Shown: piece after piece, positions 3,430-23,096 of the stretch
Position numbering within the stretch: the first letter of the stretch is position 1
Layout of the letters: each line of letters starts with the position of its first letter
Notes under the pieces: generated by a model
The model's input: only the letters and a program-made list of their open reading frames with translations
Databases searched by the model: none
What the model was told of the DNA's origin: nothing
Source of the DNA: a bacterium
GTDB taxonomy: Bacteria > CLD3 > SB21
DNA: 64,000 nucleotides
Direction: 5' to 3'
NCBI GenBank assembly: GCA_008933615.1
Contig: WBUR01000009.1
Location: forward strand, 1 to 64,000
Position numbers and translations under genes: made by a program

Positions 3430-3519
3430 AAATAAGAATATCTCCGTTGTTAATATCTTTTTGTAATAGGGAAATGTATAAAACTTTCTATCATTAATCT
3501 AAGACTTTGGTCATTTTAA

Positions 3520-3539
3520 AACATGATTTTTGTCATGAA
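3520..3539. promoter_or_regulatory. CRP/FNR-type dyad upstream of ppdK
   Basis: AACATGAT-TTTT-GTCATGAA. It has the same arms and spacing as the sites at 8287-8306 (maeB) and 22911-22930 (CoA-transferase/hydrogenase unit). It lies about 90 bp before the ppdK start. The binding protein is not identified in the window. Confidence 0.5.
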
Positions 3540-3620
3540 ATGATGAAAAAATATACAGTTTTGCATATTATTGGACCTTCAAACGGTTTTGAGATAATCG
3601 AAATCTCAAATACCAAAACC

Positions 3621-4183: not shown

Positions 4184-4254
4184 AGATGTTGTCCTTTAGT
4201 GTATACTATTAGTCTCTCACCCTGAAAGAATGGTGAACAATGACAAAATTTTTT

Positions 4255-4316
4255 CCGCAGATATCGGCTAATTTTCGCGGAGAGAAAATTCTGCGTGAAT
4301 CTGCGAAATCTGCGGG
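4255..4316. repeat. CTGCG-type interspersed intergenic repeat, copy 1
   Basis: CCGCAGAT (4255-4262) and ATCTGCGG (4308-4315) bound a 61-bp unit. Its right half (4289-4316) matches 24371-24398 at 24 of 28 positions. Short units rich in CTGCGAAAT occur between genes in many genomes. This copy ends about 12 bp from the residual maeB fragment. Confidence 0.5.
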
Positions 4317-4327
4317 AATATATCTAT

Positions 4328-4369
4328 TTCTTTTCCTGCGCTTCGACCACTGCGATCGCGGTCATATTG
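4328..4369 (-). pseudogene. Residual 3' end of a malic enzyme gene
   Basis: These 42 bp match the true maeB 3' end (5893-5934) at all but one base, in the same orientation and 1,565 bp away. Read leftward they encode [14 protein letters not shown] followed by TAG, where maeB has TAA. Differences inside the block and at the stop are synonymous (GCG/GCA, AAA/AAG, TAG/TAA). Weak similarity may extend a few codons further right, to about 4385. There is no start; it is a relic marking an insertion or duplication boundary. Confidence 0.85.
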
Positions 4370-4390
4370 TAAAAATAATTCAACTTTTCA

Positions 4391-5752
4391 TCAGGGTATC
4401 AAATATGACGAAATTCTTGATGAAGGTTTCGTACCTGCACTGTCAAACTGACCGCCAACATATAATTCACTCCCATTGATAGCCATGGCATTTACACCAG
4501 GTGGAAAACCAAGGGATCCATACCCGCCAACCCCACTCCCCAAACCACACCACTCATTGCCGTCCCATTGTGCAATATAATTTATGGGTTTTGTGCCTAG
4601 CATCGTAAACCAACCACCGCAATACAAAATATTATCGTAAAAAAGTAAACTCACCACATATTCGTTTGCACCATCACCTAAGCTAGACCAAGAGTTGCCA
4701 TCCCACTGAGCTAACCGATAAGCTGTATTTCCACCTGCGGTCGTAAATATCCCTCCGGCATAAATAGTGCTATTATTTACTGCCAGAGCCCTTACATAAT
4801 TATTCATGCCACTTCCAAGTGCACTCCATGCCGATCCATTCCATTTGGCGATGCGATTAGCTGATGTTCCTCCGGCGACAGTAAAGTTTCCTCCAACGAT
4901 TACGTCCGTCCCAGCAATAGCCATTGAATAAATGACGTCGTTCGTTCCCGTCCCAACCGCCGACCATTGCGATCCATTCCATTTGGCAATATTATTTGCC
5001 GGAACTCCACCGGCTTGTGTAAACGAACCACCAATATATAAATCACCGTTTAAGACAGCCATTGCATAAACATTTCCATCGGTGCCGCTCCCAAGCGCAT
5101 GCCAGCTATTCCCATCCCATCTGGCAACATGATTGACGGTGACTCCACCGGCTGTTGTAAATACTCCTCCATAATAAACGTCATTCCCAATCACAACAAT
5201 CGGGAACACAGCCTCATTCATGCCACTGCCCAAAGCAGACCAATTAGCTCCATTCCACTTAGCAGCAAAACTAACAAGTGAAGAGCCCGCATAATCAAAT
5301 CTGCCGCCGACATAAACATCCGATCCCTTACTTGCAATTCCATATACGTCACTGCTAAGTCCTTTAACACGAAATTGCTCACTCCAATTAAAATCGGCGA
5401 GTATGGGATCAAGGCAATTGCCATTATCTGCTACGATAGTACGTGTCATCAAGATGTTGGCTGATATAGTTTGCCCTCTTTTGACCAATACATCAACCGT
5501 CGTCGTAACAAAACCATTCTTAGATGCACCTACAGTATATGGTCCCTCAGAAACTTCAGGAATTAAATAATTGCCATTGCTGTCAGTAAAAACTGAACCC
5601 GTCGGAGGGTTTGTCGCTATTAATACATTAACTATAGCTGAATCCCCAACCGCCGTAATTACCTTTCCGGAAATGTTACTGATAGGTTTACTCTCTTCAT
5701 TACACGCACTCAGAACTAAAATGAAAATCAGAAAGAAATTGATGAGTTTCAT
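4391..5752 (-). CDS. Lipoprotein with carboxypeptidase-like domain and seven-blade beta-propeller
   Basis: The start at 5752 gives MKLINFF, a hydrophobic stretch and a lipobox LSAC, so a lipoprotein; an upstream in-frame start at 5812 would add 20 residues before the signal peptide. A carboxypeptidase-regulatory-like beta-sandwich follows (ISGKVITAVGDS to about residue 105). After that come seven repeats of about 45-50 aa with the pattern xxAVxxxxLYxGGxFTxAGG...AxWxGxxWxALGSG, which should close a seven-bladed propeller. The ligand is unknown. The gene lies exactly between the intact maeB 3' end and its residual copy, so it was probably acquired. Confidence 0.85.
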   Translation of the reverse strand: MKLINFFLIFILVLSACNEESKPISNISGKVITAVGDSAIVNVLIATNPPTGSVFTDSNGNYLIPEVSEGPYTVGASKNGFVTTTVDVLVKRGQTISANILMTRTIVADNGNCLDPILADFNWSEQFRVKGLSSDVYGIASKGSDVYVGGRFDYAGSSLVSFAAKWNGANWSALGSGMNEAVFPIVVIGNDVYYGGVFTTAGGVTVNHVARWDGNSWHALGSGTDGNVYAMAVLNGDLYIGGSFTQAGGVPANNIAKWNGSQWSAVGTGTNDVIYSMAIAGTDVIVGGNFTVAGGTSANRIAKWNGSAWSALGSGMNNYVRALAVNNSTIYAGGIFTTAGGNTAYRLAQWDGNSWSSLGDGANEYVVSLLFYDNILYCGGWFTMLGTKPINYIAQWDGNEWCGLGSGVGGYGSLGFPPGVNAMAINGSELYVGGQFDSAGTKPSSRISSYLIP

Positions 5753-5843
5753 ACGCCCCCTTTTTTGTTTAAAATTAGTCATTTTGATAGATAGTTTAGA
5801 AAATTCGTGCAAACTTACATTTTTTTTTTGATTTCAAATTACT

Positions 5844-5888: not shown

Positions 5889-8138
5889 TTACTTCTTTTC
5901 CTGCGCTTCGACCACTGCGATTGCGGTCATATTGACGATGTCATTCACTTCACAGCCTTTTTGGAGTAAGTGAACCGGATTACGCATGCCCATCAATATC
6001 GGACCGATCGCTTCGGCGCCGCCGAGCCGCTGGAGCAGTTTCACCGACGCATTTGCCGATTGCAGATCCGGGAATATGAGCACGTTGGCGCCGCCCTTTA
6101 AAGTGCTGAACGGATAAAATTCGTCGATGATCTCCGGCACTACCGCCGTATCGGCCTGCATTTCACCGTCAATCATAAGTTCCGGCACACGTTTTCGCGC
6201 GATCTTCAAAGCCTGCGCAATGCGGTCGGTGTCTGCATGTTTCACACTGCCGAAATTAGAAAACGAAACCATCGCTACGCGCGGTTCGATATTGAAACGT
6301 TTGGCAACTTCCGCGCTCATGATCGCAATTTCAGCCAGTTCCTCTGCCGTCGGCATGATATTGACGGTCGAATCGGCGCAGAAGTAGATTTTGTCTTTAA
6401 TGATCAGCATATACGCGCTGGATACGCTGGATATCCCTTCAGCGCGTTGAATGATCTGCAAAGCCGGTCGCAGGGTTTCCGGATAGTGCTGATCCAGGCC
6501 TGCGATCATGGCGTCGGCGTCATTCATACGAACCATCATCGCTGCATAATGCGTCCTGTCATGCATGTCCTGGCGCGCTTCATTAAGGTTTACGCCTTTG
6601 CGCTGACGTAATTCGTAATACTCTTCCGTATAGGATATGAATCGTTTGGATGTTTCCGGATTGAGAATCTGAATTCCATCAAGATCAACGTCCAATTCTT
6701 TGGCCAAAGAACGAATCTTGATTTCTTCGCCTAGCAATATCGGATGCGCGATGCCTTCATCCAGAACAATATGGCTGGCGCGCAGGACTTTTTCATTATA
6801 GCCTTCGGGAAATACGACGCGTTTCGGATCGCGTTTGGCGCGGTTCATCATCGTGCGCATCACTTCGCGGGACTTCCCGAGACGGTTTTCCAATTGTTCT
6901 TTATATTCCTCAATGTCGATTTTAATTCGCGCAACGCCGCTGTCCATAGCGGCCTTGGCAACTGCCGCAGCTTCCCAGATCAGTACGCGGTAATCGAACG
7001 GCTTCGGAATCAGGTAGTCTTTTCCAAAACGCATGCGCTGATTACCGTAGGCTTTGGATACGGAATCCGGCACATCTTCTTTGGCAAGTGCTGCCAGGGC
7101 AAAAGCGGCGGCGCGTTTCATTTCTTCGTTAATCGCTGTCGCGCGTACGTCCAAGGCGCCTCGGAAAATAAAAGGAAATCCAAGTACGTTATTGATCTGA
7201 TTGGGATAATCGGATCGCCCCGTTCCCATGATGACATCGGGCCTCGCAGCCATCGCAAGGTCGTAGGTAATTTCCGGGTCGGGATTAGCCATCGCCATAA
7301 TGAGTGGATTCTTTCCCATCGAGCGCACCATGTCCTGCGTAACGCAATCGGCCACCGATAATCCAGCAAACACGTCTGCATCAACCAAAGCATCCGCCAG
7401 CGTTCGCGCTTTGGTATCATTTGCCAAAGCTTCTTTGTAGGGATTCATTCCGGCCGTGCGTCCTTTGTAGATCGCGCCTTTGGTATCGCAGAGAATGAGG
7501 TTTTCTTTTTTAACGCCAAGGCTGATATAGAAATTGGCGCACGCAATGCCCGATGCGCCTGCGCCGTTAACGACAACTTTGATCTTATCCAGCGGCTTGC
7601 CGAGAAGTTCCATCGCATTCATCAGCGCCGCGCCGGAAATGATCGCGGTTCCGTGCTGATCATCGTGGAAAACAGGTATTTTCATCGTTTTCTTTAATTC
7701 TTCTTCAATGTAAAAACATTCCGGCGCTTTAATGTCTTCAAGATTGATCCCGCCAAAAGTGGGCTCAAGCAGTTGAACCGTTTTGATAATCTCATCGGCG
7801 TTATGCGTATCTAATTCTATATCAAACACATCGATATCTGCGAAACGTTTGAACAAAACGCCTTTGCCTTCCATCACCGGTTTACCTCCGAGCGCGCCGA
7901 TGTCACCGAGCCCAAGAACGGCGGTGCCGTTCGATACTACGGCTACGAGATTTCCCTTAGCGGTATAAAGAAATGCGTCGTCCGGATTTTTTTCGATATG
8001 CAGACAGGGTATCGCAACACCCGGACTGTATGCAAGCGAAAGATCGCGCTGGGTTGTGCATGGTTTGGTCGGTATAACTTCAATTTTTCCTTTTCGCCCC
8101 ATCTGGTGATATTCGAGGGCTTCTTGATCCTTTATCAT
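5889..8138 (-). CDS. maeB: NADP-type malic enzyme with phosphotransacetylase-like C-terminal domain
   Basis: Oxidative decarboxylation of malate to pyruvate in the cytosol. Residues about 1-400 form the malic enzyme part ([10 protein letters not shown] near the N-terminus, substrate and NAD(P) domains). Residues about 425-749 are the PTA_PTB-like domain, which in MaeB enzymes is usually catalytically silent and regulatory (acetyl-CoA sensing). The length of 749 aa is normal. Of two ATGs 6 bp apart, the one at 8138 has AGGAGG with a 6-nt spacer, while the one at 8144 abuts the SD. A CRP/FNR-like dyad lies about 150 bp upstream. Its last codons also occur at 4328-4369. Confidence 0.95.
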
Positions 8139-8527
8139 GTTCATCCTCCTGCAGTCGTAACTCTCAACGAATTACCGAGAGCATAAAAATCATTTTAGAA
8201 TAGAATTAATTGTTGAATAGTAACTAACAAATACCGTCATACTGAGGTCTTTTAGCAGATGAATTTAATGAATTGGAATTCAAAAAAACATGACCTACGT
8301 CATGTTAGCGTATCTTTTAAAATGTAGAAAAAAACAACGTAGAGGGGTTTTACAATGAAGCGATTTTGGAGAGGAAAACGATTATATAAAAAACCTTGAA
8401 GGAAAAGAGCCGATTCATAACTTATCCTACGTTAAATCAGCCAGACCCCTCAAGGTCTTAACTTAATTTTCCGGATAACCCGAAGTCTCCGCATTCGCGG
8501 CAATTTTTCCCGCTCACTGGTTTCTCG
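8139..8527. other. Intergenic region upstream of maeB
   Basis: It contains the dyad at 8287-8306 and a REP-like AGACCCCTCAAGGTCT at 8443-8458. A 13-codon ORF at 8355-8396 (+) is too short to support. Nothing else is recognised. Confidence 0.5.
8287..8306. promoter_or_regulatory. CRP/FNR-type dyad upstream of maeB
   Basis: AACATGAC-CTAC-GTCATGTT, a perfect 8-bp inverted repeat with a 4-nt spacer. It is the most symmetrical of three sites in the window sharing these arms. Confidence 0.55.
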
Positions 8528-11161: not shown

Positions 11162-11180
11162 CCCTCCTTATTCAGGAGGG
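11162..11180 (-). terminator. Strong terminator behind the DsrE-like gene
   Basis: CCCTCCT-TATTC-AGGAGGG: a 7-bp GC-rich stem. Leftward it is followed by eight T's, a textbook rho-independent terminator. Confidence 0.75.
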
Positions 11181-11192
11181 GATAAAAAAGGT

Positions 11193-11215
11193 AGAGCGAA
11201 AAGCCTTTTCGCTCT
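11193..11215. terminator. Second palindromic terminator
   Basis: AGAGCGAAAAG (11193-11203), one base, CTTTTCGCTCT (11205-11215). Leftward it is followed by ACC and six T's. It lies between the residual oxidoreductase end and the terminator at 11162-11180. Confidence 0.6.
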
Positions 11216-11233
11216 AGAAGTATGGACGGTATT

Positions 11234-11285
11234 TACAACACGCTCTCGCCGGGAAATGTGTATTCGCCATTGTAAGCGCGGATGC
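11234..11285 (-). pseudogene. Residual 3' end of the 2-oxoacid oxidoreductase beta/gamma gene
   Basis: 52 bp that match 13454-13505 at 47 positions, same orientation, exactly 2,220 bp away. Leftward they encode IRAYNGEYTFPGESVL and TAA; the intact gene ends IRAYNGEYEFPGESVL and TAG. Four of the five base differences are explained by one E/T codon change and synonymous changes. Similarity stops abruptly on both sides. It marks the left boundary of the sulfide-type cassette. Confidence 0.85.
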
Positions 11286-11324: not shown

Positions 11325-11678
11325 TTAAAAAGTGAGAACTTTATCTGACTCTACTGTCCATTGAGCCAATTCACTCATGGTGCTGATTTCCACACCGTCG
11401 ATCAGGGAATGATCCCGCAAACCCCGCGCATCGACGCAGCTTCCGCATAACTTTACTTTCCCTTTTTTGGAGAGTACTCCTTTTAACATACGCTCAATGT
11501 TATAGTATCCCTGCGGCGTATTTTGCGCTTTCAGCGCGGACGTCACAGCATCGGCCATTAAAAATACCAGCACTTCAACTTCGGAAGGCTCCTTTTGCAC
11601 CGCCATAGCAAGGCGCAGAGCGTTGTAAACTTTTTCCGTTCCGTAAGGCGGGTCGTTAATCAAAAACAGGATTTTCAT
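11325..11678 (-). CDS. DsrE/DsrF-like sulfur-relay family protein
   Basis: 117 aa, a single alpha/beta domain starting MKILFLINDPPYG, with VLVFLMADAV in the core and a CxxC pair Cys78-Gly-Ser-Cys81. In DsrE and TusD a Cys near position 78 carries persulfide. It is soluble, without signal peptide. GGGAG lies before the ATG. Placed 70 bp behind the SQR-like gene, it probably accepts or transfers sulfane sulfur made by that enzyme; this role is inferred from family and context. Confidence 0.82.
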   Translation of the reverse strand: MKILFLINDPPYGTEKVYNALRLAMAVQKEPSEVEVLVFLMADAVTSALKAQNTPQGYYNIERMLKGVLSKKGKVKLCGSCVDARGLRDHSLIDGVEISTMSELAQWTVESDKVLTF

Positions 11679-11748
11679 AACATAGTCTCCCGATTCTTTT
11701 TGTTTATAGAATGTTCGTGAATTCTACCTTTAGAAAGCAAAGCAGTGT

Positions 11749-12981
11749 TCATACATCAATCGGAATCCTGAAGACTTTAGCGCCGAGAGAAATCAAAAAG
11801 CGTAGTAAAGTTTTGCGAATTCCAACAGGAGCAAGCCACCACTTCTCAAACAAGATTTTACCTAGGTGCCATACTTTTCCGATGTTTCGAAGATCGAGTT
11901 GCGGATTTTTTTCTCCAAAGAAGTCGCCATAAGCAAATCCCGCAAGCCCATCGCCTGCTTCAAGCATACAATATCCGGTTCCGCAAAACTCATCTTTGGA
12001 AATTCGCCCTTCAATTTGATCTGAAATTCGTCGAGCAACAACTTCCCCCTGTGTATGAGCAAAAACCCCGGCTTTTGGAAGCATCATCGGAATATCGGGA
12101 TTCCATCGCCCGGGAATACTTATAGCCGTTATGTCGCCGATGGCATACACGTTTTCGTGTGATGTTTGTAAGGTTTTGCGATCTACAGATATCCAACCGG
12201 CTTCATTTAAAAGAGAAGCATCTTTGACAACCTTTGGCGCACGGTGAGGCGGAATCGCAACGAGTAATTGGTAGGCTACCGGTTCTTTTCCTTCAAAATG
12301 GAGTTCACGAGATTCGTCATTAACCGACATTAGCTTATGTAGCGGATGAAATAAAATACCTTTCGCCGTAATCATTTTCTTTACGGCTTCTCCGAGTTCC
12401 GGACCGCCGACAGGCATCGGTTGTGCTTCAGGAGTGTATAGATGAACAGTTTTCGCCGATCTGCGCCGGCGATAATAATCCATGATAAGCATAGCCGCTT
12501 CGTGTGGAGCTCCGGGACATTTGTATGGAACTCCCGCGACGACTAATGCTATGTGTTCTTCTCGAAAACTCGACAGCGTTTCTTCTAATTTACTCGCTTC
12601 CTGAAATGTATAGAATGAATGTGCGTTGTCGGTTAGACCCGGTATCAGCTGTGGTGCAAGTTCGGCTCCCAGTGCAATTACGAGATAATCGTAAGTTAGA
12701 GTTTGTGCGGAAATGGTAACGGAGCGTTTGGAAATATTTATATTCTTTACCTCATCACAAAATAAATCGATGCCTTTACGAATGAGCGATCGGATGGGCT
12801 TAATAATTTGCTCCGTTTTTCTGCTGCCGGTCATTACCCAAAGAAACGAGGGGGCAAATGCATGGGTTGGGTTCTTTTCAATAAGAACAATTCTATGAGT
12901 CTGCGGAAATTTTCTTCGGAGTTCATTGGCCGCTACAAGACCGCCCACGCCGCCGCCTAAAATTATGACTGTTTTGCTCAA
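11749..12981 (-). CDS. Sulfide:quinone oxidoreductase-like FAD flavoprotein
   Basis: 410 aa from a TTG at 12981 with GGGAGAG 4 nt upstream, starting 14 bp after the ArsR stop; longer in-frame starts would lie inside arsR. FAD motif VIILGGGVGGLVAANEL at residues 5-21. Cysteines in SQR-like positions are PYKCPGAP (Cys155), FCGTGYC (Cys333, Cys338) and Cys75; SQRs use two or three cysteines for the trisulfide. The second dinucleotide motif YAIGDITA follows. The C-terminal WWLAPVGIRKTLLRFLISLGAK looks like an amphipathic membrane anchor. Likely oxidises sulfide and passes electrons to quinone; an NDH-2-like or other disulfide activity cannot be excluded. Confidence 0.8.
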   Translation of the reverse strand: MSKTVIILGGGVGGLVAANELRRKFPQTHRIVLIEKNPTHAFAPSFLWVMTGSRKTEQIIKPIRSLIRKGIDLFCDEVKNINISKRSVTISAQTLTYDYLVIALGAELAPQLIPGLTDNAHSFYTFQEASKLEETLSSFREEHIALVVAGVPYKCPGAPHEAAMLIMDYYRRRRSAKTVHLYTPEAQPMPVGGPELGEAVKKMITAKGILFHPLHKLMSVNDESRELHFEGKEPVAYQLLVAIPPHRAPKVVKDASLLNEAGWISVDRKTLQTSHENVYAIGDITAISIPGRWNPDIPMMLPKAGVFAHTQGEVVARRISDQIEGRISKDEFCGTGYCMLEAGDGLAGFAYGDFFGEKNPQLDLRNIGKVWHLGKILFEKWWLAPVGIRKTLLRFLISLGAKVFRIPIDV

Positions 12982-12995
12982 GTTTCTCTCCCGGG

Positions 12996-13313
12996 TTATT
13001 GATTCAAAATCACTTGATGGCGCTGAATATTCTCCACTAGAACTTCTCTCATGAGCCGGCATGCTTTTGACACTTTAGCCGAAGAAAGTTTATAGTATAC
13101 ATTGATGCCTTTTTTCCGTTGTGCCAGCAATCCTTTATGCGCCATGATGGTAAGATGCTGCGATAAAGTGGATTTTAAACCCCCGATTTTTGATAGAATA
13201 TCCCCGAAACTCAATTCATCCTCTTGTAATACTTCAATGATTTCGATACGAATCGGATGGCCCAACGCTTTACAAACGTCGGCATGCAATACATAAATAC
13301 TTTTGTTTTTCAT
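12996..13313 (-). CDS. ArsR-family regulator, probably sulfide or persulfide responsive
   Basis: 105 aa winged helix: ALGHPIRIEIIEVLQ, recognition helix STLSQHLTIMAHKGLL, wing KKGINVYYKL. Two cysteines, Cys14 in the first helix and Cys85 in the last, could form a redox pair as in BigR/SqrR/YgaV, though the positions are not identical. No classical metal-binding ELCVCDL motif. It is the first gene of the cassette with the SQR-like and DsrE-like genes. A 34-bp palindrome lies just upstream, which points to autoregulation. Confidence 0.85.
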   Translation of the reverse strand: MKNKSIYVLHADVCKALGHPIRIEIIEVLQEDELSFGDILSKIGGLKSTLSQHLTIMAHKGLLAQRKKGINVYYKLSSAKVSKACRLMREVLVENIQRHQVILNQ

Positions 13314-13322
13314 AATTCACCT

Positions 13323-13356
13323 GTTTATTAGTTCATAAGTTTATGAACTAATAAAC
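13323..13356 (-). promoter_or_regulatory. 34-bp perfect palindrome, operator of the ArsR cassette
   Basis: Sixteen-base arms GTTTATTAGTTCATAA and TTATGAACTAATAAAC around GT, 10 bp upstream of the arsR start. The core TTAGTTCATAA..TTATGAACTAA has the size expected of ArsR-family operators. It should overlap the promoter of the cassette. Confidence 0.75.
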
Positions 13357-13404
13357 ACAAAATCAATGGTTTTTTAAAAATTTTTTCAGGTTAAAGACTA
13401 AAAA

Positions 13405-13429
13405 AGGGCGAAGATCATCTCTTCGCCCT
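13405..13429 (-). terminator. Terminator of the hydrogenase/oxidoreductase unit
   Basis: AGGGCGAAGA (13405-13414), loop TCATC, TCTTCGCCCT (13420-13429); leftward followed by TTTTT. It closes the long operon 24 nt behind its last stop. Confidence 0.8.
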
Positions 13430-13452
13430 CTTATCTTAAAACGCAGAATGGT

Positions 13453-14901
13453 CTACAATACGCTCTCGCCGGGAAACTCGTATTCGCCGTTGTAAGCGCG
13501 GATGCCCCATTCGAAGGCCTCTTCATTGATCGGAATCATCGCGCATTTATCTTTCAGCGCCTGACGGATCGCGGTAAGGAAAGTCTCTTTGGGGAAAATA
13601 TCTGTTGCCGCATGCAGGGCGCCGAGAGCAACGATATTTTTTACCATGACCTTGCCGAGATCCATCGCGATCTGCGTAAACGGAATTCCGTAGATCATAG
13701 TTCCGTGATTAAATAGCGGTGGAGCTGTGATTATTGAACTGTCATAGAAAATAGTTCCGCCGTTTCGTACGTGAGGGCCGAATTTTGCCAAACTGGGCGC
13801 ATTGAACGCGATGAGAATATTCGGATTCGGCGATGCCGGGGACAATACTTCCGTTTCCGCAACGTGCACATCCGCGTAGGATGTTCCTCCGCGCGATTCC
13901 GGGCCGTAACTCGGGATATGTGTTGCGTCGAATCCTTCATTGATTCCTGCGCGGGTGATGAGCATCGCCGCCGTCTGGGCGCCGTCGCCGCCGGAACCGG
14001 CCAACTTCAGCGAAATGTCGCTTGGCGAAATATGATGCGGGAACCCGGGACTGAATCGTTCTACTTTCTCACTCGTTCCACCGACCAGTTCCTGCAGTTT
14101 GTTGGGGTCAAAGTTCGGTTTGTTCAGTTTGAACCAAGGCTCGCGGGGCTCGTCTTTTTTAACTCCAAGAGGAAATACCGGGAGCATCTTATCGCGAACC
14201 CAAGTCTCTGCTTCCTGCGGCGTCATCTTTAAATGGGTTGGACATTCTGCCAGCACTTCTACGAATGAATATCCGCGCCCTTCAACCTGTAATTGAATGG
14301 CTTTTTTGATCGCCTTTTTTGCATGGTTGCGTTGCTTGTTGTCAAATAAAGCGACGCGTTCCACATACATCGGGCCGTCAATTTGGGCGATCATTTCCGC
14401 CATACGAAGCGGTTGTCCCATGATCCTGCTTCGGCCATGCGGCGAGGTTGCTGTTTTTTGTTCCATCAACGTAGTCGGAGCCAATTGCCCGCCGGTCATG
14501 CCATAGATCGCATTGTTAATAAAAATTACCGAGATGGGAATTCCTAACTGCGCCGACTGAATGATCTCTGCTAAACCGATCGACGCCAGATCGCCGTCGC
14601 CTTGATAGCTAATGACGATCGATTCCGGATTGGCAGTCTTATGCCCCAAAGCAACAGCCGGCGCACGTCCATGAGCGGCTTGTGTATTGCCGACGTCAAA
14701 ATAATAGTACATGAATACGCTGCAGCCGACTGGCGAGACTAGTACCGTTCGGTTTTGAATTTCCAGTTCGTCTATAGTTTCCGCCAGATATTTATGCGCA
14801 AGGCCGTGGCCGCAGCCCGGGCAGTAATGCGTGGAGTTGGCCTTCAACCCTTCGCCGTGAGCATGACGCTCGAACTTTTCATAAAATATACTCGATTTCA
14901 T
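13453..14901 (-). CDS. 2-oxoacid:ferredoxin oxidoreductase, fused beta and gamma subunits
   Basis: 482 aa. Residues about 1-265 are the TPP-binding beta subunit: YCPGCGHGLAHKYL near 27-40, GDGDLASIG and the later NNAIYGMTGGQ form the TPP/Mg motif. From about 300 the gamma subunit follows (ISLKLAGSGGDGAQTAAMLI, PSYGPESRGGTSYADV). Known relatives (Kor/Vor/Por) decarboxylate 2-oxoacids to acyl-CoA with reduction of ferredoxin, or the reverse; the substrate cannot be told from sequence alone. ATGA overlap with the alpha gene. Its last codons are repeated at 11234-11285. Confidence 0.88.
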   Translation of the reverse strand: MKSSIFYEKFERHAHGEGLKANSTHYCPGCGHGLAHKYLAETIDELEIQNRTVLVSPVGCSVFMYYYFDVGNTQAAHGRAPAVALGHKTANPESIVISYQGDGDLASIGLAEIIQSAQLGIPISVIFINNAIYGMTGGQLAPTTLMEQKTATSPHGRSRIMGQPLRMAEMIAQIDGPMYVERVALFDNKQRNHAKKAIKKAIQLQVEGRGYSFVEVLAECPTHLKMTPQEAETWVRDKMLPVFPLGVKKDEPREPWFKLNKPNFDPNKLQELVGGTSEKVERFSPGFPHHISPSDISLKLAGSGGDGAQTAAMLITRAGINEGFDATHIPSYGPESRGGTSYADVHVAETEVLSPASPNPNILIAFNAPSLAKFGPHVRNGGTIFYDSSIITAPPLFNHGTMIYGIPFTQIAMDLGKVMVKNIVALGALHAATDIFPKETFLTAIRQALKDKCAMIPINEEAFEWGIRAYNGEYEFPGESVL

Positions 14902-16352: not shown

Positions 16353-16850
16353 TTATTTAAGATTCAGACTGTTGTTTTTTATCTGCCTGTATTTCAAAAT
16401 GTCATGAATGACCATAATTAGTACGTCTTGAACTTTCTTCTCCACTGCTTCGGATAAACCCTCGCCCGTTCCAAAATCCACACCGTCGATTCCATAGACA
16501 ATAAGATCCGGTGTTTCCGATTTCAACGCTTTTGCGAGTTCAATCGCTTCGGCAATGCTAAAAGCATGGGTGGAATAATTAAAAAAATTAGCCGGGATCG
16601 TTTCGTTCTTAGGCTCCAGGCGATGAATCGTTCCCGGGATGTTATCAGAACAGACGGCATCGATCATGATTGCCATATCTGTCTCTTTCCAAACCTCCAT
16701 CAGCGCAGCGCCCTCCCCGCTTTGTTCGATCACTCTCACATCCGGGAAATTCAATTTAGCCACTTCCCGCGCAACCATGACGCCGACGCTGTCGTCGCGG
16801 CGAAATGCATTGCCGATTCCGATGACCAAAATCTTGGAGGCTGTTTTCAT
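16353..16850 (-). CDS. [NiFe]-hydrogenase maturation endopeptidase
   Basis: Removes the C-terminal peptide of the large subunit after nickel insertion. 165 aa from the ATG at 16850, one base after the hydA stop; a TTG start inside hydA would add seven residues. HyaD/HycI-family fold: VIGIGNAFRRDDSVG with the nickel-sensing Asp, MIDAV with the second Asp, and FNYSTHAFSIAEA with the His. Its direct place behind hydA fits a dedicated protease. No hypABCDEF genes lie in the window. Confidence 0.92.
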   Translation of the reverse strand: MKTASKILVIGIGNAFRRDDSVGVMVAREVAKLNFPDVRVIEQSGEGAALMEVWKETDMAIMIDAVCSDNIPGTIHRLEPKNETIPANFFNYSTHAFSIAEAIELAKALKSETPDLIVYGIDGVDFGTGEGLSEAVEKKVQDVLIMVIHDILKYRQIKNNSLNLK

Positions 16851-16851
16851 G

Positions 16852-18141
16852 TTATGCTCTTTCAATTTCAAGTTTCAGAAAATGCGTCGCGCAGGAAATG
16901 CATGGATCATAATTACGAATCGCCTGCTCGCACTGCCATGTCAGTTTACCTTTATCCAAACCGATATTTTTTTCTACAAATTTTGTGAGATCGGCCTCAA
17001 TCTGCTTCTGATTTTGAGATGTCGGCGGCACGATCTTCGCGTCGGTAATAACGCCTTCTGCATCGGTCGAATAACGATGATAACATATTCCGCGGGGCGC
17101 TTCGGTGCATCCATAACCGGTTCCGGCTTTCGGATGTAATTCCAATCGCGAGATTTCCGGCGGTTCATAATGTTGTATGATTCGTAGCGCTTCTTCGCAG
17201 GCATACACCGTTTCAATGCTGCGCGCAATGATGCTCTTAAACGGATTTTTGCATTCCGGCATGAAATGAACTTCCTTAGCGAGCGCTTTCGCGGTCGGCG
17301 TCAGTTGTTCAAAATTGAGATTAAATCTGGCTAGGGGCCCGACGTTATACGCGCCGCGCCGAATGATAATGCTGTGCAGCGCATTACTATGCGCCTCGTG
17401 AATTTCTTCAAAATTGCGTTCATAGTCGCGAATCTCAATATTTAACCCGCGATTGGAAATAAGTTTCCCGTCCAAGATCGCGTATTCATCCTCGCGGTGC
17501 AGAGCAACAAATTCATAATCCATTTCAAAATCAGGGAAGTCGAATCCGGCAACCCACTTGACAGTTTCAATAGACGCATCGCGCGCCCATTTTAACTTTT
17601 CCTCGAGCGGTTGCAATTCTTTCTTCGACGGCGCGCGGTAAAACCCGCCGACCGCCACATTCACCGGATGAATTTCCCTCCCGCCGACTGCCGTCATGAT
17701 CTCATTGCCAATTTTTTTCAGTTCCAGACCGCGTTTAACTATATCCGGAAATTTACCGGCCATGTGGATGGCGCTCTCATACCCCAGAAAATCCGGCGCA
17801 TGAAGCATATACACGTGCAATACATGACTTTCAATCCACTCGCCGCAGTAGATCAGCCGACGCAGGTCACGCAGCGCACCTTCGACCTTGATTCCCAGAA
17901 TATTTTCCATAGCCTGCGAGGAACTCATTTGATAGGCTATCGGACAGATTCCGCAAATGCGCGCAGTAATGTCCGGCGCTTCGGTGTACTTACGTCCGCG
18001 CAGGAAGGCTTCAAAAAAACGCGGCGGCTCGAATATTTTAAATTGTACCTTCGTTATTTTTTTGTCTTTGATCTTGACGATAAGGCCGCCTTCGCCTTCG
18101 ACCCTTGCCAGATAGTCCACTTTTATCGTTTTAGTATTCAT
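16852..18141 (-). CDS. hydA: Group 3b [NiFe]-hydrogenase large (alpha) subunit
   Basis: Catalytic subunit of a cytosolic bidirectional NAD(P)-linked hydrogenase (sulfhydrogenase type). The N-terminal Ni ligands are RICGICP (61-67; Cys63, Cys66), the C-terminal ones DPCISCATH, followed by nine residues ending ERA that the protease would remove. The ATG at 18141 has GGAG upstream and overlaps hydD by 11 bp; a start further upstream is unlikely. Its order behind the small, FAD and FeS subunits is typical of hydBGDA clusters. Confidence 0.95.
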
Positions 18142-18910
18142 ACGCCTCGCTCTCCTTACGGCAGGCATCCGAGTAACAATTAAAAGCGCGGAACGATCTG
18201 ACGATATCCGGATCGCTCACGGCAAGTTGGCTCCACCACTTGCTGAGAGAAGACATATTCGGCGTCTCCTTGGGGCCAAAACATCCGTAACAACCTCTGT
18301 GGTAAGAAGGACAAATGGCGCCGCACCCGGCTTGCGTAACCGGACCCAAGCACGGTATTTCTTTGGCAACCATCACACAGGTCGTTCCGCGCTGTTTACA
18401 TTCCATACAAACGCTATGAGGAGGCGTATTAGGTTTACGCCCGTTCAAATAAGCGCTGATCACTTCAATGAGCTGCGGTTTGCTGATCGGACAACCCCGC
18501 ACCTCGAAATCAACAAATACATGTTCGGAGATCGGCGTGGATTTTGAAAGCGTCTCAATATAATCCGGCCGTGCATAGACAATGTTTGTAAAATCTTTTA
18601 CATTTTTGAAATTGCGCAGCGCTTGAATTCCACCCGCCGTCGCGCATGCACCGATGGAAATCAGCACATTCGAAATACGCCGTATGGCATGAATTCTCTC
18701 CGCGTCATGAGCTGTAGTGATGGAACCTTCGACCAAAGATACATCGTAAGGCCCTTTGACCACTTCGCGTGATGCTTCAGGAAAATTGGCAATGTCGATT
18801 CGTCCGATGAGCGTAAGTAACTCATCTTCACAATCCAAAAGACTAAGCTGACATCCGTCACACGAGGCAAATTTCCAAACCGCCAGTTTGGGTTTATTTT
18901 TTTTTGTCAT
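18131..18910 (-). CDS. hydD: Group 3b [NiFe]-hydrogenase small (delta) subunit
   Basis: 259 aa, no Tat signal, so cytosolic. [18 protein letters not shown] (16-33) carries the first proximal-cluster cysteines; [19 protein letters not shown] and a Cys-rich end ([33 protein letters not shown]) supply three FeS clusters. The start lies one base past the hydG stop, with AGGGAG upstream. Electrons pass from here to the FAD subunit. Confidence 0.94.
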
Positions 18911-18911
18911 A

Positions 18912-19748
18912 TCATATCTCCCTCTGCATCAGAAGATCATGGATCGTATCATAGCGAAATACCGGGCCGTCCTTGCAAATGAAGACAGAACCCCATTGGC
19001 AGTGTCCGCAAAAACCGACCGCGCATTTCATGTTTCGCTCCATGGACATATAAATTTTATCCTTCAGGACGCCGCGGGTAATAAATTCCTGAACCGTAAA
19101 TCGCATCATGATCTCGGGTCCGCATACCATGGCGATCGTTCGCGCCGGATCAAAATGCGCCTTCGATATTAGCGTGGTGACAACGCCGACATTGCCGCGC
19201 CAGGCGCCGCTGGCACGATCTACGGTGACCGCCACTTCCGCATCAAGCCGCGCCCGCCATTTTTCAAGTTCCTTCATGAATAGAATATCCTGAGGCGTGC
19301 GTGAACCGTACAATAAAATCACTTTTCCGTATTTTTCACGATGTGCAAGCACATGATAGATCACCGGCCTTAGCGGCGCCAATCCGATTCCGCCTGCAAC
19401 TATGGCAACGTCATGGCCTGATGCCCGTAATACCGGCCAGTCGGTTCCGTAGGGACCGCGGATCCCGAGAATATCCCCTTTTTTCAGCTTGCGCATCGCC
19501 TTCGTGACGCTTCCCACCGCGCGGATCGTATGAATGATACTTGTTTTTTTCAACGGATCGCCGCTGATCGAAACGGGTATCTCACCCACGCCGAACAAAT
19601 AGACCATATTAAATTGGCCGGGCTTGAAAGTAAACTCACCGCCGTCCAATGGTTTTAATTCAAAAGTAAAAGTATCGTGTGTTTCTTTTACTGCGCGGCT
19701 GATCTGAAACAGCCGCGGCAGCATTACATTCGGAACTTCTGCTATCAT
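18912..19748 (-). CDS. hydG: Group 3b hydrogenase FAD/NAD(P)-binding (gamma) subunit
   Basis: 278 aa of the ferredoxin-NADP reductase family. FAD-binding beta-barrel ([21 protein letters not shown]), NAD(P) domain ([34 protein letters not shown]) and a C-terminal [2Fe-2S] site [17 protein letters not shown]. It is the site of NAD(P)H formation or oxidation. It starts 3 bp after the stop of the cNMP-fold gene. Confidence 0.93.
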
Positions 19749-19751
19749 ATA

Positions 19752-20219
19752 TTACCAATCCGCTTTTGCTCCATACACATCCATTAACTGTAAACGGGTT
19801 GCCTGGAGGCGTGAAGAGAGAACCGTAAAGAAACGTTTGAGCAATTGATATCCCATTTCATGATTGTCTTCGCATTTTTTTCTCAAACATTCCCCATCCA
19901 AGGCTATCGCCCGTGTCGGTTCTACGACGCGCGCATCGAAGTGCCAGTAGTACGGCGGCACCAACCAGGACCAGCCAAGCACGTCGCCCGCTTCTAAAGT
20001 TTCGATGACCACATGACCCCGTCCGGGAACAAAAATCTCGACTGCAACTTTGCCCTGACGAATCAGATACACTTTTCTTGCTTCTTCGCTCTCGTGAAAA
20101 ATAAACTGCTCGGTGTCATACCGAACGTTCGACGCGCAGCCGACGATAACAGGCAATAATTCATCCGGAAAGTCGGACAGGAATCCATGTTCTTTCAATA
20201 CCGATTCTAGATTTTCCAT
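19752..20219 (-). CDS. Cyclic-nucleotide-binding-fold protein without DNA-binding domain
   Basis: 155 aa: one cNMP-binding beta-roll (FIFHESEEARKVYLIRQGKVAVEI, LEAGDVLGWSWLVPPYYWHFDARV) plus a short helix. The phosphate cassette lacks the Glu and Arg of cAMP receptors, and no helix-turn-helix follows, so it is neither a typical CRP nor likely to bind cAMP. GGGAG lies 7 nt before the ATG. Lying between the FeS and FAD subunit genes, it may be a structural or regulatory partner of the hydrogenase. Confidence 0.85.
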   Translation of the reverse strand: MENLESVLKEHGFLSDFPDELLPVIVGCASNVRYDTEQFIFHESEEARKVYLIRQGKVAVEIFVPGRGHVVIETLEAGDVLGWSWLVPPYYWHFDARVVEPTRAIALDGECLRKKCEDNHEMGYQLLKRFFTVLSSRLQATRLQLMDVYGAKADW

Positions 20220-20309
20220 TTTTTCTCCCGTTTAAGTAGTGCACTTACTTAAGTACGGTTAATGATTCTGTTTATTAAAAATAAATCGGAACTTCTCATG
20301 TCCGATATT
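20220..20309 (-). promoter_or_regulatory. Intra-operon gap with dyads
   Basis: 90 bp between the FeS subunit and the cNMP-fold gene. It holds AAGTAGTGCACTTACTT (imperfect palindrome) overlapping TACTTAAGTA, and a 6-bp hairpin ATCGGA/TCCGAT at 20286-20307. No T-run follows, so it is not a terminator. A secondary promoter or processing site is possible. Confidence 0.3.
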
Positions 20310-21464
20310 CTAAAGTTCATCTTCTACGGCAACGTGCTTTTCTCCCTGCCGGATCGTTGCCGCTTCTTCCGTTAAATCAATTCCCACGGGGCACCACGTA
20401 ATACAGCGGCCGCAGCCGGTGCATCCGAAGGAGCCGAACTGATCAACCCAATTAGATAACTTATGCGTCATCCATTGGCGGTAACGTGATTTAGCAGAAT
20501 TGCGGATACTGCCGCCGTGGATGTATGAAAAACGAACCGTAAAGCAGGAATCCCATTTGCGCCAGCGCTCCGCATGATCGCCGCTCAGGTCTGTTACGTC
20601 CTCAACGTTGGTGCAAAAGCAGGTCGGACAAACCATGGTGCAATTAGCGCAGCTCAGACAGCGTTTTCCGATGCTGTCCCAGATGCGATTCTCCAGATTT
20701 CGGTTCAACATATGCTTCAAATCCGTCGTATCCAAAATTTTGGTAATTTGAGATTCTGTCTTCACAACAACTTGTTCTGCCTGTTGAACCTGCTCTTCGT
20801 TCGCCGACGTATTTGACACCTCGTGTAAAATTTCTACGCCGAGATCCGAGCCCGTCTCCGCAACGAAGAAATGATGTGTGCCGTCAATAATCTCCGTCAA
20901 CGCAATGTCAAAATGATTGGCCGCTTTCGGGCCGGTATTCATCGACGCGCAGAAACAATTGTGCCCTGCCACGCTACAATTGACTGCAACAATAAAAGCG
21001 CGTTCTCTTTTTTGCACGTAAGCAGCATCCTGAAAATCTTTGCCATAAAAAACTTTGTCTTGTATCGCGATGGCATGCAGTTCACATGCTCGTACGCCGA
21101 TAAATGCAAATTTCAACGGTTCCGTCTTATCTTCCTCAACGTCAAACTCTTTGCCGTTACGTTTTGCCGACCAGAATTTAACCGCCGGACTGTGCAGATA
21201 AGTCTTCCATGACGTCGGAGTGATAACGTAACCAAACCATGCATCATCATTTCGTTTTTTCAAACGATAGGTACCAGCGCCCTGCTCATCCGTCCATCCG
21301 ACAGGCAGTTGATCGATCGATGAAATTTCATCGAGAATAATGGCTTGATCTTTTAAAGTAGGGCCGATCGTAGTGTAACCGTGTCGGAGTAAGACGTCAA
21401 AAAGTTTCTGTAGTTCTTTACTGTCAATAACGAGTTTGTCTTTACCGGGATTAAATTGCCGCAT
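20310..21464 (-). CDS. hydB: Group 3b hydrogenase FeS (beta) subunit
   Basis: 384 aa from the ATG at 21464 with GAGGAG at 7 nt; a GTG 18 bp upstream is less likely. The N-terminal region carries a Cys-rich stretch (GVRACELHAI, VNCSVAGHNCFCASM), and the C-terminal half two [4Fe-4S] ferredoxin motifs, CLSCANCTMVCP and CTGCGRCITWCP. It matches the beta subunit of Pyrococcus-type sulfhydrogenase, which transfers electrons between the hydrogenase core and external acceptors. Confidence 0.92.
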   Translation of the reverse strand: MRQFNPGKDKLVIDSKELQKLFDVLLRHGYTTIGPTLKDQAIILDEISSIDQLPVGWTDEQGAGTYRLKKRNDDAWFGYVITPTSWKTYLHSPAVKFWSAKRNGKEFDVEEDKTEPLKFAFIGVRACELHAIAIQDKVFYGKDFQDAAYVQKRERAFIVAVNCSVAGHNCFCASMNTGPKAANHFDIALTEIIDGTHHFFVAETGSDLGVEILHEVSNTSANEEQVQQAEQVVVKTESQITKILDTTDLKHMLNRNLENRIWDSIGKRCLSCANCTMVCPTCFCTNVEDVTDLSGDHAERWRKWDSCFTVRFSYIHGGSIRNSAKSRYRQWMTHKLSNWVDQFGSFGCTGCGRCITWCPVGIDLTEEAATIRQGEKHVAVEDEL

Positions 21465-21489
21465 ATCCGCTCCTCGCTGCACGAGGGCT

Positions 21490-22800
21490 TCAGTGAACGA
21501 AGAAATTGTACTTCAGCCTTTCATGCGCAGCTTTTGCTAATTCTTCTCTGAAACTGGGGTGAGCGATAGCGATCAGCGCTTCCGCTCTCTCTCTTAAATT
21601 TTTTCCATGTAAGTACGCGACGCCGAATTCCGTCACTACATAATGCACATCCGCCCGCGTGGTCACGACACCCGCGCCGGACTTTAGAATGGGGGCGATA
21701 CGTGAGGTTTTTCCGCCTTGTGCAGTTGACGGCAACGCAATGACCGGCTTTCCGCCTTTGGCGTAGGCCGCGCCGCGAATAAAATCAACCTGTCCGCCGA
21801 AACCGGAAAATATTTTTGTCCCTATAGAATCGGAACATACTTGCCCGGTCAAATCTACTTCGATGGCGGAATTCACCGCAACTATATTCTCATTACGTGA
21901 AATGATAAAAGGATCGTTAGTGTAATCCGATGGATGAAACTCGAACATCGGGTTATTGTGTATATAATCGTAAAGAGCACGGCTTCCGAGCGCAAACGTT
22001 CCAACAACTTTGCCGGGATGTAATGTCTTTTGCGAACCGTTGATAATGCCCGATTCGATAGCCTGCATCACGCCGTCAGAAACCATTTCCGTGTGAATGC
22101 CCAGATTTTTCCGGTCATACAAGAATGATAAAACGGAATCGGGAATTCCTCCGATGCCTAATTGCAGCGTGGTGCCGTCGTCAACCAACTGCGCTACATG
22201 CTGTCCGATCCTCCGTTCAATGTCGGTAGGCTGCGCTCTCTCGAGTTCCGGTATATCTTCAGAAACCTCAACGATCTTGGTTACTTTTGAAACGTGAATG
22301 AAACAATCGCCTAAAGTTCGCGGCATTTTTTCATTCGCCTGCGCCAGAATAATTTTTGCTGCTTTCAATGCCGCCATGGTCGCCAATGTTTCCACGCCTA
22401 AACTCATAAAACCATGTTCGTCCGGAAGGGTGGTTTGAATGATCGCCACATCTAAATGTTTTTGACCGGATGAAAAAAGCCATGGAATTTCATGAAGAAA
22501 GACGGGAATGTAATCTGCGCGGCCGTCATTAACCGCTTCGCGGTCTGCCGGGCCCACGAACAGCGAGTTGTGTCTGAAGTGCCCCGCCATTTCCGGTTTC
22601 GACAACGGATCATTACCGATCAGTAAAACATGCGTCACTTCGACATCGGTGAGTTCGTCCTTACGATCGGCAAGAGCGTTTAGCAAAACGTACGAAGTTG
22701 CCGCATTGCCGCTTGTAAATATCTTATCGCCGGGCTTGATAATTGAAACGGCTTCCTGCGCTGTCGTACTTTTCCTCTTAAATTCTTCAGTCCATTTCAT
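21490..22800 (-). CDS. Acetyl-CoA hydrolase/transferase family CoA-transferase
   Basis: 436 aa, first gene of the hydrogenase unit. The motif VNSAIEVDLTGQV (about 310-322) contains the catalytic Glu that forms the CoA thioester; GIGGIPDSVL and the C-terminal EFGVAYLHGKNLRERA are family hallmarks. Known members use acetate, succinate, propionate or 4-hydroxybutyrate; the substrate is not decided by sequence. 25 bp separate its stop from the hydB start. GGAG lies 9 nt before the ATG. It may release acyl-CoA produced by the oxidoreductase as an acid while conserving the thioester. Confidence 0.9.
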   Translation of the reverse strand: MKWTEEFKRKSTTAQEAVSIIKPGDKIFTSGNAATSYVLLNALADRKDELTDVEVTHVLLIGNDPLSKPEMAGHFRHNSLFVGPADREAVNDGRADYIPVFLHEIPWLFSSGQKHLDVAIIQTTLPDEHGFMSLGVETLATMAALKAAKIILAQANEKMPRTLGDCFIHVSKVTKIVEVSEDIPELERAQPTDIERRIGQHVAQLVDDGTTLQLGIGGIPDSVLSFLYDRKNLGIHTEMVSDGVMQAIESGIINGSQKTLHPGKVVGTFALGSRALYDYIHNNPMFEFHPSDYTNDPFIISRNENIVAVNSAIEVDLTGQVCSDSIGTKIFSGFGGQVDFIRGAAYAKGGKPVIALPSTAQGGKTSRIAPILKSGAGVVTTRADVHYVVTEFGVAYLHGKNLRERAEALIAIAHPSFREELAKAAHERLKYNFFVH

Positions 22801-23096
22801 TCCAATTACTCTCCGGTTATTATTTTATTTAAAATAGTTCTAAATCGTTTTCTTACCTGCCTTAATGTAATATAAATAAACGCAAAGTGTTAAGACATGG
22901 GTCAGGTTTAAACATGATTTTTATCAGGAAATGGACGTATTAAATGACAAAAAAGAGGGTTGGATGGGCATTTAGAAGAAAATAGTGTAGAAATATGCTA
23001 CAAGGCTGGAAAAAGGGGGTTTTTCTTACTCAATCTGAAAAAAAATGCAGAGCTTATACAGGAATGTTAAGAAAATAGAAATATATAGATCAAATC
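22801..23096. other. Promoter region of the CoA-transferase/hydrogenase unit
   Basis: 296 bp, AT-rich, without coding signal. It carries the dyad at 22911-22930 and is shared with the 3' side of the HtrA gene. Confidence 0.5.
22911..22930 (-). promoter_or_regulatory. CRP/FNR-type dyad upstream of the hydrogenase unit
   Basis: AACATGAT-TTTT-ATCAGGAA, about 110 bp before the CoA-transferase start. The left arm and spacer are identical to the ppdK site; the right arm has two deviations. Confidence 0.45.

Follow-up and report, generated by a model that had tools for sequence, protein, structure and literature searches.

Within a stretch of 64,000 nucleotides of bacterial DNA (the window; contig WBUR01000009.1 of assembly GCA_008933615.1), three genes lie on the minus strand 3' of kor. 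Reading along that strand, kor is followed by a long palindrome, an ArsR-type regulator gene (arsR), a gene for a flavoprotein resembling sulfide:quinone oxidoreductase (sqr), a gene for a DsrE-like protein (dsrE) and then two terminator-like hairpins. The original prediction had described a sulfide-response cassette made of a regulator, a flavoprotein, a DsrE-like protein, a palindrome and two terminators, and all of these elements were found in place. The features of the locus are as follows.

13453-14901, minus strand: kor, 2-oxoacid:ferredoxin oxidoreductase fused beta/gamma subunit (domain matches), the host gene of the proposed insertion
13454-13505, minus strand: 3' end within the intact kor, second copy of a 52-nt direct repeat
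13402-13432, minus strand: terminator-like hairpin of kor, read as upstream insulation of the cassette
13322-13357: palindrome of two 17-bp arms and a 2-nt centre, predicted ArsR operator
12996-13313, minus strand: arsR, ArsR/SmtB regulator of 105 aa (open reading frame, domain models, alignments)
11749-12978, minus strand: sqr, SQR-like flavoprotein with a TTG start (open reading frame, domain models, alignments)
11325-11678, minus strand: dsrE, DsrE/YchN-like protein with C78xxC81 (open reading frame, Pfam, alignments)
11234-11285, minus strand: 52-nt copy (90% identical) of the kor end, 16 codons plus stop, downstream boundary of the cassette
11192-11216, minus strand: terminator-like hairpin 1, after dsrE and the kor fragment, with a T-run
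11162-11180, minus strand: terminator-like hairpin 2, with a T-run

Terminator-like matches in the region number six, which is not above a shuffled control (4.5, s.d. 2.3).

The palindrome and the regulator

The arms of the palindrome, TGTTTATTAGTTCATAA and TTATGAACTAATAAACA, are 17 bp each, 100% complementary and separated by 2 nt. The length of 34 bp given to it before counts the paired bases; the element itself is 36 nt long. In 20 Markov-randomised copies of the window perfect arms reached at most 11, against 17 here. The palindrome stops 8 nt short of arsR, and a search for its 24-nt core with up to three mismatches found it to be unique within the 3.77-Mb genome. Perfection, position and uniqueness argue for the proposed palindromic operator, and the uniqueness indicates that ArsR is probably a one-operon regulator. 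The congener G001 retains the site with two substitutions, each of which breaks one pair. The palindrome overlaps a predicted promoter (TTGATT-17-TAAACT) that is weak, with 8/12 consensus matches, and a bound repressor would therefore be expected to block transcription. We scored 12 arsR upstream regions for shared motifs. An exact TTGACA is present in six of them (L024, L031, L094, L095, L096, L116), and several have imperfect repeats with a TTTCGAAA-like core close to the -10 position. Outside the window the repeat scores were weak (net 4-9) and showed no operator sequence common to the window and the other regions.

The regulator belongs to the ArsR/SmtB family (NF033788, HTH_metalloreg, 68.7 bits against a cut-off of 55; PF01022, 31.1 against 22) and has, as predicted, exactly two cysteines in its 105 residues, C14 and C85. 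A structure model with a mean pLDDT of 87.1 places C14 in helix 1 (residues 4-16) and C85 in helix 5 (79-104). According to the available part of PMC10509353, a single cluster contains every known persulfide-sensing ArsR protein, and their cysteines lie in helices 2 and 5. With SqrR, BigR, YgaV, HlyU and SoxR the window protein shares the ArsR fold, two cysteines and linkage to sulfide oxidation genes, and the Z scores of its model are 14.1 to BigR and 13.8 to SqrR. Unlike BigR and HlyU, it has a glutamate, E27, aligned with the helix-2 cysteine, and its cysteine is in helix 1 instead. Membership of the SqrR/BigR persulfide-sensor cluster (SSN cluster 4), in so far as this source defines it, was rejected on these grounds and on the score of the NCBIfam BigR equivalog, 45.5 bits against a cut-off of 155.

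The closest solved relative by sequence is Rv0081 of Mycobacterium tuberculosis (51.6 bits), which is also second by structure (Z 14.7, 31% identity), tied there with many other ArsR chains. The accessible text of PMC10509353 links the Rv0081 cluster to hypoxia and describes it as for the most part uncharacterised. Rv0081 is an autorepressor that acts through an inverted repeat in its own promoter (PMC6177252, in the part available), much as would be expected for the window protein. It differs, however, in having F and A at the positions of C14 and C85, and in its tie to hypoxia, as far as the material seen extends.

The ligand is the weakest point of any functional reading of ArsR. H10 and C14, four residues apart in helix 1, are invariant in 7/7 aligned regulators, and because of the invariant H10 there may be a metal site. 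It could then be argued that H10, C14 and C85 bind a metal or metalloid, that the operon answers arsenite or a thiophilic metal, and that SQR and DsrE handle the sulfide released. The family model that recognises the regulator is named 'metalloregulator', and a Synechocystis ArsR-sqr operon is co-regulated by arsenite and sulfide in the available part of PMC4918915. Nevertheless we consider this unlikely: the helix-3 CxC motif is absent from the ArsR sequence, the unit encodes neither an efflux pump nor a reductase nor a metallothionein, and some of the related regulators lack C85.

The sulfide genes and their occurrence in other bacteria

The TTG start assigned to sqr is borne out by GGGAGAG preceding the TTG at 12978 and by relatives that align from it; the earlier in-frame ATG (13062) overlaps arsR. 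Solved sulfide:quinone oxidoreductases match the protein at E 5e-31. Two of its residues, C154 and C337, have cysteine counterparts in the solved chain 3szf and are invariant in 12/12 aligned SQRs, and on this alignment they are probably the two redox-active cysteines beside FAD that mark an SQR. At a further 3szf cysteine, within ICTVDHA of that chain, the window protein has Y. The 3szf residues are, we assume, Cys160 and Cys356 for the aligned pair and Cys128 for the third, with the corresponding roles. The closest NCBIfam family is SQR_III_seleno (NF049943), the only type III SQR model to give a match, at 221.9 bits, far below the subtype cut-off of 525. In contrast to that subtype, the window gene has no in-frame TGA and both redox positions are cysteine.

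The DsrE-like protein carries the predicted CxxC as C78-G-S-C81 (CGSC) and belongs to the DsrE/DsrF-like family (PF02635, 91 bits against 22.7). Assignment to the TusD/DsrE subunit of TusBCD was rejected, with TIGR03012 at 40.5 bits against a cut-off of 89.25. The closest solved relative is E. coli YchN (PDB 1jx7), which matches over the full length at 114 bits and likewise has a CxxC; unlike the window protein, YchN had no tie to SQR in the results obtained. The CxxC is retained in 7/7 aligned sequences if one TGA at the first position is read as selenocysteine. This codon belongs to an archaeal bin (L027:3530-3850), where dsrE lies between arsR and sqr, and it likely encodes selenocysteine; PMC13188914 lists DsrE-like selenoproteins with UxxC.

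The gene set was followed in other genomes by two routes. An SQR query fetched 12 GTDB loci, from which L033, a short partial match, was excluded, and an SQR profile matched 32/290 genomes at E 1e-50, from which 20 larger stretches were taken. Scores of at least 478 define a subgroup of 19 loci (the window, L022-L032 and L094-L100), and scores below 450 the 13 more distant SQRs (L101-L113). A match to the ArsR model lies within about 5 kb of sqr in 17/19 subgroup loci, against 0/13 distant ones; the two without are L026 and L029, and the contig of L029 starts close upstream of sqr. DsrE lies within about 5 kb in 12 of the 19, against one of the 13 (a weak match of 34 bits), and both genes occur together near sqr in 11/19. 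Flank length and the route by which loci were found differ between the sets, so these counts express an association, not a rate. The same-strand order arsR-sqr-dsrE is seen in the window, L032, L094 and L095. In the SQR tree the window falls in a seven-row clade (100/100) with Acidobacteriota, Bacteroidota and Spirochaetota bins. By these comparisons the gene set recurs in many bacteria, and the cassette is one instance of it.

Twelve of the 17 regulators are of the window type (window, L024, L027, L028, L030, L031, L032, L094-L098; that of L097 is complete only in L116). All twelve have C14 and ten have C85, which is F in L030 and Y in L096. Four subgroup loci combine ArsR with a rhodanese-like part (L022, L025, L099 and L100, that of L100 being unmatched), and the L023 regulator differs from both types. 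The ArsR-rhodanese-like regulators lie at L022:1457-1969, L025:1886-2554 and L099:6192-6632, with the motif YCRGPFC in L022 and L025. No SQR was recognised in the 1.5-kb flanks of several C14/C85 regulators (L117, L118, L119, L125, L126 and others), and the cysteine pair is therefore not exclusive to SQR operons. Together with the hypoxia link of the cluster around Rv0081, as given in the accessible source, these would suit a broader redox or oxygen regulator for which the sulfide genes are one output only. The strong linkage to SQR and DsrE and the single operator in the genome argue against such a role, which we regard as improbable.

We think that the cassette is probably an autoregulated operon for sulfide/persulfide detoxification that was acquired horizontally. 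An ArsR dimer on the palindrome would shut off arsR-sqr-dsrE. When sulfide is oxidised to persulfide or polysulfide, sulfane sulfur would react at C14 and C85, and either a C14-C85 bridge or a change at C14 alone would release the DNA and open the operon. SQR would move electrons from sulfide to quinone through C154/C337 and FAD, giving quinol and sulfane sulfur, and the CxxC protein would take up and carry the latter. The genome has two haem-copper oxidase genes and a cytochrome bd match just above the cut-off; the two haem-copper oxidases could accept electrons from the reduced quinone. The sulfide response claimed before is favoured by the gene content and by the conserved ArsR/SQR/DsrE association, and is weakened by the missing helix-2 cysteine of known persulfide sensors. 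C85 missing in 2/12, the glutamate at the helix-2 position and the weak promoter (8/12) count against the detoxification operon, as do the regulators with C14/C85 but no SQR and, within the limits of the source, the hypoxia-tied Rv0081 cluster. More tentatively, Rv0081-type ArsR proteins could be a distinct and so far unrecognised class of sulfide/persulfide sensor, using the helix-1/helix-5 cysteine pair or C14 with H10, present in several bacterial phyla and an archaeal bin, attached to SQR-DsrE operons and delivered here by an insertion that left the old tail of its target gene. We put this forward as a possibility on which some doubt is in order.

Duplicated gene tails and the proposed arrival at kor

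The first reading of the locus had missed the 52-nt direct repeat (11234-11285 and 13454-13505, 90% identical), which flanks the cassette as direct repeats flank integrative and transposable elements. Three of the five differences between the tail copy and the window kor end (AAT, GTG, TAA) match kor of G001, as expected if the remnant is an older native allele. In G001 the corresponding fragment is badly decayed. Third-position GC is 38-40% in sqr and arsR, 52% in dsrE and 56-61% in kor and vorB.

The subgroup SQR occurs in 2/9 genomes of the class (G000 and G001), G002-G008 giving no match at E 1e-50. Cassette DNA is present in 3/7 family genomes: whole in G000, as arsR-dsrE only at kor in G001, and in G002 just as the kor tail. 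The kor site of G001 thus has arsR-dsrE without sqr, and that of G002 an unrelated gene for a 260-aa lipoprotein-like protein. DNA of the arsR region is 97% identical between the window and G001, while its surroundings are at 84-90%; dsrE is nearly identical over its first ~225 bases and lower beyond, with 84% over the whole dsrE stretch. As judged by these identities, the G001 arsR-dsrE copy is a recombination mosaic. A complete arsR-sqr-dsrE also exists in G001, on contig C6, with an SQR 63% identical to that of the window, against 97% for kor. This assembly has 620 contigs and a contamination estimate of 9%, and C6 could be contamination. Presence pattern, mosaic, GC content and tree fit acquisition and reshuffling by recombination.

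One might instead see an ordinary vertical operon, in which a local duplication long ago produced the kor tail copy and relatives without the cassette have lost it. G001 indeed keeps arsR-dsrE at the same place with decayed tail-like sequence, but the restriction of the SQR subgroup to two of nine class genomes, the position of the complete G001 cassette elsewhere with its divergent SQR, and the 97% identity of the arsR region amid surroundings at 84-90% make vertical descent hard to credit.

The original prediction had also held that the cassette has everything required for its transfer as a unit, which is borne out only in part. Patchy presence, the mosaic copy in a congener and the duplicated kor end favour acquisition; no mobility gene was found, all three cassette proteins falling in other families. 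A Pfam scan of 16 window proteins showed no integrase, transposase or relaxase domain. That plasmids carry a close relative was rejected, as all 36 plasmid SQR records are below 60% identity. In the reading that we prefer, incoming DNA with the 3' part of kor and the cassette would have recombined at kor, and its far end would have been joined 52 nt short of the native kor stop, so that the native tail stayed behind as the remnant. The donor DNA was not found, and we infer this route from its product; the decay of the corresponding G001 fragment also counts against it.

The window holds a second unit of this kind at a malic enzyme/phosphotransacetylase (Pta) gene.

5889-8144: malic enzyme/Pta gene
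4391-5812, minus strand: beta-propeller gene, the comparable cargo between the Pta gene and the remnant, absent at this site in G001 and G002
4325-4382, minus strand: remnant, the native malic enzyme/Pta 3' end (copy of 45-58 nt)

The remnant matches the Pta end at 5890-5947. In G001 and G002 the site is empty, and the end of the Pta gene runs straight into the sequence that follows the remnant in the window. The empty sites in both congeners show by comparison an insertion with a duplicated gene tail. Exactly such a tail copy is the product of homologous recombination on one side combined with an illegitimate joint at the far end, within the gene, an idea known as homology-facilitated illegitimate recombination.

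A genome-wide habit of such insertions was rejected: among 25 repeat rows in 914,002 of 3,770,839 bases, the two window cases were the only ones. The nearest other row (L152 649/2710) resembles a dispersed repeat, because its start is at the stop codon and a further copy is in inverted orientation. The idea that flanking repeats are conserved at other cassettes was likewise rejected, comparable ones being found only as one 63-column pair in L096 (83%) and one 40-column pair in L031 (85%). The shared architecture of the two window units (gene end, terminator, cargo, tail copy) and the clean Pta insertion relative to G001 and G002 would also suit a site-specific element, that is, 1.5-2.2-kb units entering gene 3' ends with a replacement tail through an integrase acting in trans from elsewhere. 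We give this little credence, given that the tails differ between the units, no integrase was seen, the repeat rows contain no third case and other cassettes, save the two pairs above, lack comparable flanking repeats.

Two further repeats were observed. A stretch of ~70 nt at 4249-4318 (containing CTGCGTGAATCTGCGAAATCTGCGG) has dozens of matches in G000, G001 and G002 at ~75-97% identity and is, by this recurrence, a dispersed REP-like repeat. At L058:11253-14683 (G000:C17), intergenic repeats of ~30-56 nt occur at four places in 3.5 kb and are 91-100% alike.

Known systems and the neighbourhood of the cassette

Both ArsR-SQR operons (PMC4918915) and SQRs with DsrE-type carriers (PMC10205796) are already in print, as the available parts of these papers show. 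Synechocystis and Geitlerinema likewise pair an ArsR with an SQR, in an apparent sqr-arsR operon that is described as mobile; unlike in the window, ArsR is downstream of sqr, an IS4-like transposase adjoins, arsenite co-regulates, and no DsrE is named in the portion seen (PMC4918915). The Methylacidiphilum fumariolicum operon, which is upregulated with sulfide, encodes a type III SQR, TusA and DsrE2 (PMC10205796, in part). It resembles the cassette in joining an SQR, there of type III, to a sulfur-carrier/DsrE protein, and differs in having TusA, in a DsrE2 rather than a YchN-like protein, and in that no ArsR is named in the accessible text. A literature search that covered subscription journals thinly turned up neither a helix-1/helix-5 cysteine ArsR sensor nor the three-gene set, and a narrow query on tail-duplicating insertion, a weak negative, gave no paper either. 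On the comparisons made here, the cassette is genuine and probably acquired, and it belongs to a widespread gene set for predicted sulfide detoxification; its regulator is of a novel form, but the whole is not a new kind of system.

If the helix-1/helix-5 type also senses sulfide, such sensing would have arisen more than once on one fold, and the Rv0081 cluster, largely uncharacterised in the source as far as seen, would gain a testable chemical role. Sulfide tolerance could then be predictable from sequence in many uncultured lineages. Duplicated gene tails, for their part, would be a readable scar of the entry into a genome of single operons that lack mobility genes.

Immediately upstream of vorB-kor lies a hydrogenase cluster (16353-22800) with genes for a maturation protease, the NiFe large subunit, the small subunit, an NAD-binding subunit, and cNMP-binding and Fe-S proteins. 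This is possibly a sulfhydrogenase-type group 3 enzyme. A 43-nt repeat (84%; 3500-3542 and 22891-22933) containing CATGATTTTTGTCATG or a close variant precedes a gene for a PEP-utilising enzyme in one copy and the hydrogenase cluster in the other, and resembles a common regulator site.
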